Positions 36,256 through 52,234 of a stretch of DNA of 64,000 nucleotides are shown piece by piece. The notes beneath the pieces were generated by a model. The model did no database searches. It was not told where the DNA came from and saw only the letters and a program-made list of their open reading frames with translations. The translations under genes and the position numbers were made by a program. Origin of the DNA: Artemia franciscana (lineage: Eukaryota > Arthropoda > Branchiopoda > Anostraca > Artemiidae); assembly GCF_032884065.1 (NCBI RefSeq), contig NC_088866.1, positions 51,964,068 through 52,028,067 of the forward strand. The letters are read 5' to 3'. Each line of letters begins with the position of its first letter. Position 1 is the stretch's first letter.

Positions 36256-36277
36256 GGGTGCGTTTGTTTACTTGTCC
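36256..36277 (+). repeat. Left terminal inverted repeat
   Basis: 22 bp, perfect reverse complement of 52213-52234, preceded by TAA. The following about 150 bp hold ATTAATC repeats, two GACGTCAG sites (36321, 36430) and a second ATTACTTGTCCG (36361), possible transposase or Myb binding sites. Confidence 0.93.
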
Positions 36278-36504
36278 GATTATTAATCTGATTAATCCAA
36301 GCGTTTTTTAGACACATATGACGTCAGAGGTTAGTCGGATTATCCCCACAAACGCTCAAGATTACTTGTCCGTGGGCTGGCACTTTATAACCCCCAAATA
36401 AAAAGATTATTTGAGGATTGTGACGTCAGACGACCATGTGCATGTGACTCACCTGTTGATAGGCTATGGGTTTTGTAGATAAGCTATGTTTATAGTGGAG
36501 TAGT

Positions 36505-36712
36505 ATGATTAATATTTCTAAGGAAGCCTATCAAGTCCCTTGGGAAGAGGGTGGGATTCAAGTTCTATTTGCAATTGAACTGTCTATTGAGTTTGTAAGT
36601 TCAGTTCAGAAATTTCAGATGGAATATAGGCATACTGACAAGACTTATAAAATTATATGCAGAGAGCATGCTAATACAGTTATATTGGAGATTACTTCAG
36701 ATTTAGGAGGTT
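36505..36712 (+). CDS. Harbinger Myb/SANT-like gene, exon 1
   Basis: Starts at an ATG 249 bp inside the left end and encodes about 69 residues (MINISKEAYQVPWEEGGIQV through HTDKTYKIICREH to EITSDLGG). It ends at a strong donor, T|GTAAGT, in phase 1. The next coding exon (41689) begins with two bases that complete the codon as Ser. A stop follows three codons later if unspliced, so splicing is required. The function of this segment is unknown to me. Its 3' part and donor are duplicated 325 bp downstream (36836-37037), giving a choice of two donor-bearing copies. Confidence 0.5.
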
Positions 36713-37222
36713 GTAAGTAGCATAATCTTGTCTGTGCTTATAAAATATTAAGGTTTTCTAGAGAGCTAGGCCTAGGTTTCAAAGGCTAGTAGGCTAGGCT
36801 CTGATGCACAGAACAAAGGTTTTTTATCAGTTAGAAAGGTGTGTTATTAGGAATAGAGCTTGGGAAAGCACATTTCTTACTACCATTATTTCTTACCAAT
36901 TGAACTGTCTATTGAGTTTGTAAGTTCAGTTCAGAAATTTCAGATGGAATATAGGCATACTGACAAGACTTATAAAATTATATGCAGAGAGCATACTAAT
37001 ACAGTTATATTGGAGATTACTTCAGATTTAGGAGTTTGTAAGTAGCATAATCTTGTCTGTGCTTATAAAATATTAAGGTTTTCTGGAGAGCTAGGCCTAG
37101 CTTTTAAAGGCTAGTAGGCTAGGCTCTGATGCACAGAACAAAGGTTTTTTATCAGTTAGAAAGGTGTGTTATTAGGAATAGAGCTTGGGAATGCACATTT
37201 CCTATTACCATTGTTTCTTATT
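36573..37222. repeat. 325-bp tandem duplication covering the exon 1 end
   Basis: 36573-36897 repeats at 36898-37222 with few differences (for example AGGAGG versus AGGAGT before the donor). The second copy keeps the open frame (ELSIEFVSSVQKFQMEYRHT) and the GTAAGT donor but lacks the original ATG context. Confidence 0.9.
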
Positions 37223-37483
37223 TTACCCTAAATTTTCAATTTAAACAATCTCAATTTTAGATGTATTTTTCCCTCTACTCATTACTTTTCCTAATCTCTC
37301 TCTAAGATAACAAAAAGTAGCTTTTCTAATAGTTTATGCTATTTAAAATTTTATGATTAAATCACTAATGGGACAGCTAAGAAATAGCCTAGACTTAGAC
37401 CTACATTTAGAATTAATTTCATCCTGAATCCTAATATAGACCTATCATTTGTTTGTATCAGAGAACTTAAACTGCTCCCCCCT

Positions 37484-37572
37484 AATATATATATATATAT
37501 AATTTTTTTTTATGTGTGTGCTGTTGCATTGGTGATTTCTCTTTTCATTATATATATATATATATATATATA
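37484..37572. repeat. TA tracts flanking the Helitron insertion
   Basis: Short (TA)n stretches surround a T-rich segment and TGCTGTTGCATTGGTGATTT (about 37519-37550). They border the Helitron 3' end at 37573. Confidence 0.9.
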
Positions 37573-49067: not shown

Positions 49068-49369
49068 GTCTCCTGTCTATGATGTCGTGGCATCAGCTGA
49101 AGCCAGTGAAATCAATTTAATGCATTTGTAAATTAAGTCGTAATAGCACGCACATAGTCAACAGTTTTGAGTAAGGGAAGGAAATCCTCCGACTAAGAAA
49201 AAGCAATTCTCAAATAATTAACATATGTAGTTTCCGCATTGATTGTATTGGTTAGTCCCAGAGATTGATTGCATGCAAAAACGTCAAACAAGACAATTTG
49301 CTTCCTCATGACAGTTGCTTAATTATGTAATATGCACACAAAAACTGATAAATCATAATATTGAAATAC

Positions 49370-49531
49370 CGTTAAAATACTTGGCTCATTCAGCTCTTCC
49401 TCATCTTGATATAATTCATTTTCTGAGTCAGTAGACTCGTCATCCGAGTCAGTAGACTCGTCATCCGAGTCAAAAATTTCATTAACCAAAAACAGTGCTG
49501 AAATAAGATTTCTCGGCGCCGTCTGGGACAT
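49370..49531 (-). CDS. Harbinger transposase, exon 1
   Basis: The 54-residue exon starts MSQTAPRNLISALFLVNEIF and continues into a repeated acidic stretch (DSDDESTDSDDESTDSENE) to EPSILT. It ends at donor ACG|GTATTT in phase 0, matching the phase-0 acceptor at 47016. The acidic N-terminus is common in Harbinger transposases. The intron (47017-49369) contains the second Helitron fragment and the TA cluster. The ESTDSDD repeat comes from a 24-bp tandem duplication in the DNA. Confidence 0.6.
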
Positions 49532-49739
49532 TTTGGGAGAGGTTCTACCTAAAATAAAGTAGAAAACTGAGCAATCAGAATAGTGAAACAAAACAGGGGA
49601 AAATCACATCTAAACGAATAAATTTTAAGAAGCACGTTTGTTTTCAATAAAAATAAGGAGGCAAGTTTTTCAGCACTTCTACAAAAGCTTCTAATTCTAA
49701 TTAAATGGCCTTTAAGTTTTCTTAAAGAAAATTTGGAAA

Positions 49740-51395
49740 GAATTGGGACCAAAGGTCAAAATTTAATGTAAAGAATGAGGCATCGAGAAGGGGCTAACCA
49801 TTCATATACAAAATTTGGGTTTGTTGTAAGTTTTAGCGTTGCTACTTATTTTCAGTTCAAAAAGCGTGGTTTTTAGTTGTTTTTTTTTTTTTTTTTATAT
49901 CTGAGCTTGAAACCTCTGCATTAGTGTTCTCTGATACAGTGAATCTGATGGTGTGATTTTAAATACGCGTGTAAGATTTATTAAGTCTTACGGAATGTTT
50001 TTCCCTTATTTGATAATCAGGCTAATTTTCTCAGGCCTGTGCCGTTTGAAGGTTAATATTAAACATAATAAGTATTATTTATTTTAAATTTGTATAAAAA
50101 ATTAAGTCTTTTGTTGTAACTACTGTTAATTTTTTGTTTTGTGCAATTGGGCCGAGTCGCTCCGTACTTACAGTTGGTTAAATTAAAACAAAATTATTTT
50201 TTTGAAAGTAAGGAGCAACATTAAACCTCAAAATGAACGAAAATTATTATCATGAAAAGAGAAATCACCAATGCTTAAGCACAAACACAAAAAAAATAAA
50301 AAAAAAAAAAAAAAAAAAAAAAAAAAAAAAAAAAAAAAAAAAGGAGACAGAAGGAGAAAAGGAAGACTGTTTTCCTAAATTAGTGATTAATATAGACCAG
50401 CACTTGAATGAGGCCTTAACCCTACTCATCCATACAATCACATAGGTCAAACAGCATAGCCACACACAATCAACCATAAAGAATAATCCATGGACAGGCA
50501 GTCATGTCGTCAATAAGTATAAGTCGTCATTTACCAAACAATAGAAAAAATAATATAGACAAATAATTCAGAGGCAACACCCAACATAAGGGCTCATCAG
50601 GAGAATACACTGGCCTATATAGGGTTTCGCCACTCTAAATTCTCTACCCAGCACAGTGTTGTGGCTACCACAGAATATCCATGGCATCCCCGCGTCAGGT
50701 ATCACCCCCAAAATACATGTCTATGAAAAAAACAGCAAATGTAAAACAACCAAGTAAAACCAAAACAAGCTTATCCTGTTAATATATCCCTCCCTTTAGC
50801 AACAATAGGTAAACTAATATGAAGGTTTGCCCCCTCCTCAATACCTTACTCTTTATGCTAAAGTTTGTCCCAATTTTTGAAGTACGGCAACTGAAACACG
50901 GGGGCCGTTTAATTAGAATAGGAAATTTTTTTTACTATTAATAACTTTAGCGTTAAGATCAAGGTATTGACAGGGGGCAATCCTTCATATGCGGAATAAA
51001 TATGCCAAAATTAATATACATTTTTCATTACTTTTTCATGTACAGTAACCAAAATTCAAAGCTGCATTAGTTGAAAAATATTTATAAATTAAATAAAAGA
51101 ACAAGTTTTTCAAACTGAAAGTAAGGAGCGACATTGTTACTTAAAACGAATAGAAATTATTCCGTATATAAAATAGGTTTTCCCTCTAAAGCCTCATTCT
51201 TTATGCTAAAGTTTGACTCTGTGACCCAACTCTACTTTTTAAAACAATGAAAACAGACTTTAGCATAAGGAGTGACGTGTTGAGGAAGGGGCAACCTCTT
51301 TTATGTACGGAATTGTTTCTGTTCTTTTCAAGTTTTAATATCGCTCCTTACTTTCAGTTAAAAAAAAACTTGTTTTTTATTTAGTGACAGAAAGG
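49740..51395. repeat. Mosaic of dispersed repeats inside the Harbinger element
   Basis: 49740-49880 is a partial foldback-MITE arm. 49910-50190 is a reversed remnant of the 650-bp unit (ending GCCGAGTCGCTCCGTACTTA then CAGTT). 50195-50250 is a MITE arm. 50240-50275 is a reversed copy of the CATTGGTGATTTCTCTTTTC tag, followed by A-rich 50289-50341. 50820-51060 is a partial arm. 51090-51390 is a more complete foldback MITE. 50345-50815 is unassigned. No gene is seen here. Confidence 0.65.
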
Positions 51396-52212
51396 AAATG
51401 TGGCGTTTATCCTTATTTAAAGATCAACTAGCACGCAACTAGCCTCCTTCCAGTGTCCCTTTTTCTTCTGAAGACATCCGAATGAAATTCTGAGATGGGC
51501 GTTTGATTCACGCTAAAAAAAAAACTTTAAAAAAACATCAAATGTAAAATTAATATTTAATCGTCTCGATTTCTGGGCAATACTGTTATTATGGAAGTAA
51601 AGAGAAATATTAGGCGCTAAAATGAGCAGAGTTTATTCTTTATAGGAGGTAGACTCCCCTTTCCATCCCCAACTCCACCTCGCGATCGCAGAAACTTCGG
51701 AGGGTGCTCACTACATCAGAATTTCAGAGCTCTAATCCTTTTCAAAGAAGTCGAAAGTGATTGAAGACCAACCACCTGCGATGGGGGAAGGGTCTGTTGA
51801 GGGGGATACTCAGTTTATTACCACAAACTATGAAAACAAATTTTGAACTAGCTAAAAAGCAACTAATAATAATCGGTAACATAATATAACAGTTTCGTAA
51901 CAACAACAGCAGAAAAGTAACTAAAACATAAACAGCTGTGCTGAAGTAGAATCTCCCCCCCCCCCCAAAAAAAAGGCTATATTACCTGGTATTTGTAACT
52001 TAGGATGTACACAATAAAAATTTTACTTACTGCTGCCTCTAAAAATCAGTTAATTAATTCACGCTTTGTTTACACTGAACGGGGTCAATGACATACACGT
52101 GACCAATGTTGTTATTCTCGCAATTAATCTTGCCGTTTTCAGTGACACGTGGCCAGACAAGTATTTGTTGCTATCTTTAAGGGGTTAAACCTCGATTAAT
52201 AAAAATCCCACT
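51396..52212. other. Right interior of the Harbinger element, no gene seen
   Basis: Probable promoter side of the transposase. Sub-terminal features include GACACGTG sites (near 52095 and 52143) and AGACAAGTATTTG at 52155, which resembles the terminal ACAAGTAAACAAA. Confidence 0.45.
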
Positions 52213-52234
52213 GGACAAGTAAACAAACGCACCC
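52213..52234 (-). repeat. Right terminal inverted repeat
   Basis: 22 bp, exact reverse complement of the left repeat, followed by TAA (52235-52237). Confidence 0.93.

Follow-up and report, generated by a model that had tools for sequence, protein, structure and literature searches.

The 64,000-nucleotide stretch of Artemia franciscana DNA analysed here (the window; C4:51964068-52028067 of the 1.27-Gb assembly) very probably holds a member of a PIF/Harbinger-type family of oversized cut-and-paste transposons. It is a real, well-bounded transposon of ordinary mechanism; its unusual feature is the length of the form that spread recently, roughly three times what is usual. The anatomy of the family runs from a left terminal inverted repeat (TIR) through a Myb/SANT-like gene on the + strand and a DDE transposase gene lying tail to tail with it on the - strand to a right TIR. 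Even the leanest colinear copies measure about 12.75 kb, because introns and spacers hold Helitron-like sequence, sequence resembling miniature inverted-repeat transposable elements (MITEs) and TA repeats.

Bounds, copies and target sites

The boundaries of the window copy are as follows.

36256..52234, no strand assigned: whole PIF/Harbinger-type element from TIR to TIR, 15,979 bp
36256..36277, + strand: left 22-bp TIR, sequence GGGTGCGTTTGTTTACTTGTCC
52213..52234, - strand: right 22-bp TIR, identical to the left one and inverted
36253..36255, + strand: left target duplication TAA, directly outside the left TIR
52235..52237, + strand: right target duplication TAA, directly outside the right TIR

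When the whole window was scanned with the TIR, just two matches were obtained at up to 3 mismatches, and none were found at that threshold in 100 shuffles. Exact inverted 22-mers are common in this repeat-rich window (433 overlapping pairs, mostly of other repeat families), so that proof of the pairing has to come from genome comparison. We queried the genome with both ends and scored 40 of 549 candidates for the left end (43 matches) and 40 of 431 for the right end (40 matches), which makes all counts lower bounds. Among the matches scored, homology began at query positions 51-59 (TIR start, 57) in 38 of the 42 other left-end matches and stopped at 232-245 (TIR end, 235) in 34 of the 39 other right-end matches, in these 34 at most 10 bases from the TIR end. 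Both ends are therefore fixed by other genome copies, which confirms an earlier note on this DNA, made from the letters alone, that had proposed a single element with these exact ends, identical TIRs and TAA borders.

Sequence was read over 20 kb from each of nine other left ends, over 10 kb from another two and over 4.5 kb for C13:33.07. It revealed five colinear copies with the same end-to-end order at other loci, as well as shorter derivatives. The genome search with both ends that the earlier note had recommended thus did recover other full-length copies.

C18:34.38 Mb: colinear copy, 12,749 bp, both ends
C2:4.65 Mb: colinear copy, 12,772 bp, both ends
C10:27.83 Mb: colinear copy, about 17.5 kb, right TIR damaged
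C6:9.33 Mb: colinear copy, 18,780 bp, both ends
C13:33.07 Mb: colinear copy, 22,192 bp, both ends
C6:22.69 Mb: derivative, 5,986 bp, both ends
C4:44.03 Mb: derivative, 9,224 bp, both ends, TIR letters exactly as in the window
C12:12.33 Mb: derivative, 1,387 bp, both window ends (36255-36884 and 51478-52234), CCA duplication

In the leanest colinear copies, C18 and C2, both genes are present together with the greater part of the absorbed repeats. Flanks of 300 bp, compared among eight copies with the window copy as one of them, showed no mutual similarity (one side of C6:9.33 comprises 63 bases before an assembly gap), and these copies are therefore taken as separate insertions.

Divergence was measured on as many as 8,328 core bases (5,926 in C13:33.07; 3,593 in C6:22.69). 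The six other copies differed from one another by Kimura two-parameter (K2P) distances of 0.0025-0.0063 (0.25-0.63%), and the window copy differed from these six by 0.0113-0.0144, which places it farthest from the rest among the seven. In a six-copy comparison of 5,904 sites, 58 differences were private to the window copy, and each of the five others had 5-17. Near-identical swollen copies at several loci with unrelated flanks are read as recent movement; judged from these copies, the swollen form itself appears to have moved and to have spread recently through the genome. The same comparison overturned the suggestion that perfect TIRs mark a recent move of the window copy, since this copy is the most diverged and the TIR letters are family-level. 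At position 11 of the TIR, the window copy and most of the L029-L048 copies have G, and the recently spread ones have C. The window TIR (GGGTGCGTT...) fits the motif G(N)5GTT as given for Medicago elements (PMC2213677, in its account of the TIRs), and the 22-mer had no match in viral and prokaryote contigs.

Among 11 elements with both flanks read, the 3-bp duplication matched on both sides in eight: TAA (window), TAT, TTA, CTT, CCA, GAT, TGA and TTA. Three of these eight pairs are TWA (TAA/TTA). TAA or TTA ended 6 of 32 distinct left flanks (two repeated flanks were left out), and the same flanks leaned towards C at -4 (17/32), T at -3 (17/32) and A at -1 (19/32); the C2, C13:33.07 and C97 insertions read C|TTA|G, C|TGA|G and C|TTA|G. 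These results indicate that the family makes 3-bp duplications with a loose target preference.

Several reads were incomplete or led to no pairing. For C12:35.38, C279, C112 and C13:49.45, the sequence read contained no right TIR. For five further right ends, a 3.2-kb stretch was fetched at a distance of about 12.75 kb, where the left end should lie, and none of the five stretches contained one. Right-end matches beginning at query 95 had been considered as MITE-size elements; this reading was dropped, as none of 20 fetched had a left TIR (up to 5 mismatches) in the approximately 440 bases before the right TIR, and no duplication pairs were obtained. At L042 positions 82-128, one right and one left TIR of the family are arranged head to tail, separated by just one TAA.

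A nested transposon of 5.96-5.98 kb with ends AGGCCTTTTTTCGCGTCAACC and 3-bp duplications TAA, TTA and TAT was seen inside the C10, C6:9.33, C13:33.07 and C112 copies (L021 about 1742-7702 for C10:27.83, with corresponding inserts in L012, L024 and L022, respectively). In C13:33.07, whose own TGA duplications match, the 5.98-kb insert stands at the place of window 36487. The C112 copy has the same nested insertion at the same site with a different outer flank, and no right end of this copy turned up within the 20 kb read. We withdrew the notion of a common 6-kb insertion in C10 and C6:9.33: the junctions lie about 10 bp apart with duplications TAA versus TTA, and the two look like separate insertions. 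The nested transposon thus seems to have landed at least three times in the family, two of the landings being about 10 bp apart.

The two genes

The element encloses both genes announced in the earlier note. The Myb/SANT-like gene on the + strand starts at 36619, 363 bp in from the left TIR, and comprises three exons, of which the first is doubled; its Myb/SANT-like domain matched PF13837 (E 1.8e-14). The DDE transposase gene on the - strand has two exons and matched DDE_Tnp_4 (PF13359, E 4.9e-35).

36572..37220, + strand: 325-bp tandem repeat, 10 differences in 325 between its two units, each unit with Myb exon 1
36619..36712, + strand: Myb exon 1, first copy, donor GTAAGT
36944..37037, + strand: Myb exon 1, second copy, donor GTAAGT
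37038..41688, + strand: Myb intron 1, 4.65 kb, where most foreign sequence sits
41689..41859, + strand: Myb exon 2
44111..44733, + strand: Myb exon 3 with the PF13837 domain, open
45977..47016, - strand: transposase exon 2 (DDE_Tnp_4), frame broken in the window copy
46874..46898, - strand: perfect 13-bp tandem repeat in transposase exon 2, net +5 bp relative to sister copies
47017..49369, - strand: transposase intron, 2.35 kb, a Helitron-like block and TA arrays largely common to sister copies
49370..49531, - strand: transposase exon 1

The tandem repeat carrying Myb exon 1 is likewise double in the sister copies. The Myb exon borders are GT-AG, the three exons match protein P0121 (LOC136032016), and exon 3 is open in the window copy and in five complete sister copies. 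P0121 was 100% identical to the C10 copy over exons 1 and 3 (31/31 and 207/207 residues), and P0001 (putative nuclease HARBI1) was 100% identical to the C1 copy (344/344 and 54/54 residues), so that both Artemia proteins are encoded by copies of this Harbinger-type transposon. By eye, a possible extra Myb exon was noticed at 42192-42344, in phase with exons 2 and 3 and with one stop codon; it is absent from P0121.

A point missing from the earlier note is that the transposase gene, though present, is frameshifted in the window copy. In all five complete sister copies, exon 2 has an open frame of 344 residues, and the window frame is lost because of the net 5-bp gain at 46874-46898 (1,054 bp in the window versus 1,049 bp in sister copies). 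The catalytic triad is kept, with D, D and E at exon-2 residues 102, 181 and 219, while cysteine 133, found in 114 of the 118 relatives aligned at that position, is phenylalanine in the window. The helix-turn-helix (HTH) model PF13613 was weak in the window exon (E 0.013, below the cut-off) and is listed for the relatives P0003, P0004 and P0010. No solved structure matched the transposase by sequence at E 0.01.

In studied members of the group, the Myb-like protein binds the transposon termini and helps the transposase, which cuts at the TIRs. By analogy, the Artemia Myb-like protein should bind the termini and assist the transposase, and the latter would cut at the TIRs and insert the element with a 3-bp duplication, the duplication being the part of this scheme that was seen. 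With its transposase frame lost and its Myb gene open, the window copy could move, if at all, only by means of transposase from sister copies.

Growth of the element and rival explanations

We scored the presence of window bases in the five colinear copies by alignments chained in sequence order. Of the 15,979 bp, 11,942 recur in four or all five of them, including the doubled exon 1, MITE-like blocks and some of the transposase intron's Helitron-like block (the C10 copy lacks 47776-48549 of that block). Eight stretches, totalling 2,894 bases, occur in none of the five, a figure overstated at one place, as 48308-48462 aligns in several copies and was dropped by chaining; the stretches around 48 kb are low-complexity. 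The window copy is about 3.2 kb longer than the two leanest copies, and what it has to itself is mainly the Helitron-rich block of Myb intron 1 together with an insert of 565 bp.

37516-37717, 37800-38563, 39172-39199, 39477-40421, 48023-48080, 48159-48360, 48880-49009 and 50252-50816: stretches in none of the five colinear copies
37516..40471, no strand assigned: block largely private to the window copy, with a Helitron-like piece, an additional MITE/A block copy, TA arrays and about 0.9 kb of other sequence
about 37575-38583: decayed Helitron-like piece in the private block, labelled by eye from a hairpin plus CTAG end
41022..41628, no strand assigned: MITE-like repeat, inverted ends of about 160 bp, present in sister copies
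50252..50816, no strand assigned: 565-bp insert, absent at the same place in the sister copies read
51085..51380, no strand assigned: inverted-end repeat, second copy at 6521-6817 (77% identical), present in sister copies

The element's blocks are labelled Helitron-like from hairpin-plus-CTAG ends and motifs, recognised by eye; the frame at 48160-48504 contained no Pfam family that would mark a Helitron helicase domain. The junction 50251/50817 was uninterrupted in C18, C6:9.33, C2, C10, C6:22.69 and C13:33.07, with one base between the two matches. Most of the enlargement appears to have preceded the last move, and about 3.2 kb may have come after it. The earlier note was right that foreign sequence had swollen the element; that most of this load was built up in the window copy alone is contradicted by the shared 11,942 bp, and its suggestion that growth post-dates the last move holds for about 3.2 kb and fails for most of the length, which recurs in sister copies.

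Three other explanations were weighed against a single element of an already oversized family. That the two TIRs belong to two separate short elements, the 16-kb unit being a chance frame, was the alternative that the earlier note had named as refuting, and it is scarcely credible. It draws on a precedent in Medicago, where an apparent single element of 21,696 bp turned out to combine two related ones (PMC2213677, as its text describes that case), and on the derivatives with one or both window ends that are common in the genome among the matches scored. However, no third TIR exists in the window within 6 mismatches, the 1,387-bp derivative has both window ends, and the end-to-end order recurs at five other loci, so that this alternative would revive only if those loci were assembly artefacts. 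Divergence of the window from four sister copies was 0.7-1.8% in each of six segments tested, and this fairly even divergence speaks against a chimaera. A normal 4-5-kb Harbinger that landed and was enlarged entirely by later nested insertions is very improbable: the private stretches, the largest being 37800-38563, 39477-40421 and 50252-50816, suit it, but the sequence shared by copies whose read flanks are unrelated refutes it for most of the length, and it may apply to about 3.2 kb. It is unlikely, though less so, that the extra 3 kb belonged to the ancestral element and disappeared from the lineage that amplified recently, rather than having been gained in the window copy. The more distant copy C4:44.03 Mb, with exactly the window TIR letters, has three stretches 94-97% similar to the 565-bp block, which would agree with such a loss; yet these lie elsewhere in its own interior and look like separate insertions of a repeat, and the uninterrupted 50251/50817 junctions argue for a gain.

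Some observations weigh against a single, mobile, oversized element. Three of the 11 flank pairs do not match (C6:9.33 ATA/AAA, C10:27.83 TGA/TAT, L047 TAA/TAG), for which recombination, misassembly or decay could account. Transposase exon 1 carries an indel in the C18 copy and a 21-bp loss in the C6:9.33 copy. The private 3-kb block is flanked by TA arrays, where an assembly error is possible, and movement is inferred from copies, not seen directly. TA arrays occur within 37721-41023 and 47543-49067.

The oversized Harbinger-type family offers a case, traceable copy by copy, of a cut-and-paste element that seems to have moved with foreign transposon sequence in its introns, and in which growth before and after the last move can be separated. 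We put forward tentatively, and with some doubt, that the family's standard mobile form is oversized, its gene introns serving as a hold for other transposons that leaves the proteins unharmed while the loaded element transposes at up to 22 kb. If true, this intron hold, together with the loose choice of 3-bp targets, would define a distinct Harbinger lineage that carries other transposons.

A MITE-like repeat, about 600 bp long and with inverted ends of some 160 bp, was seen both within the element and just outside it, at 34985-35990, 38584-38890, 40514-40820 and 41022-41628. A long frame on the - strand (52518-55085) has reverse transcriptase and RNase H domains of the non-LTR (long terminal repeat) retrotransposon type, its 3' end lying 284 bp outside the right TIR.

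Comparison with known systems

Searches limited to open-licence papers listed none that deals with an Artemia Harbinger family. In the passages of Han et al. (2015, PMC4482050) on classification, targets and length, PIF/Harbinger elements have TWA duplications, and candidate autonomous consensus sequences average about 4,124 bp. The Artemia family resembles the PIF/Harbinger group of their PHIS superfamily in its DDE transposase with a Myb/SANT protein, short TIRs starting with G and a 3-bp duplication. It differs in its size (12.75 kb, and 15,979 bp in the window, which bears out the earlier note's statement that foreign sequence had enlarged the element to several times the usual size) and in having only three TAA/TTA pairs among eight. 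The family is thus a PHIS member with PIF/Harbinger-type genes, and no strict TWA member by the wording of those passages.

Compared with NuwaII, whose target is given there as C|TNA|G, the Artemia left flanks lean loosely to CTNA; unlike in NuwaII, TAT, CTT, CCA and GAT are also duplicated. Most NuwaI transposases are described as lacking any domain besides DDE, which was said of NuwaI and not seen for NuwaII in that text, whereas the Artemia relatives P0003, P0004 and P0010 list the HTH model. Helitrons make up 8.81% of the A. franciscana genome according to the repeat figures of PMC11492255, which fits the Helitron-like guests.

Large size and nesting in PIF/Harbinger are already known from Medicago truncatula, where complete elements of 2,180-25,288 bp with nested insertions are reported in the sections of PMC2213677 on large elements. 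The Artemia family shares with them the nested insertions, a TA microsatellite in the transposase intron and the TIR motif. In those plant families, as far as these sections describe them, the largest elements are individual members with nested insertions and the core elements measure about 3-6 kb, whereas in Artemia the oversized form itself has several near-identical copies.

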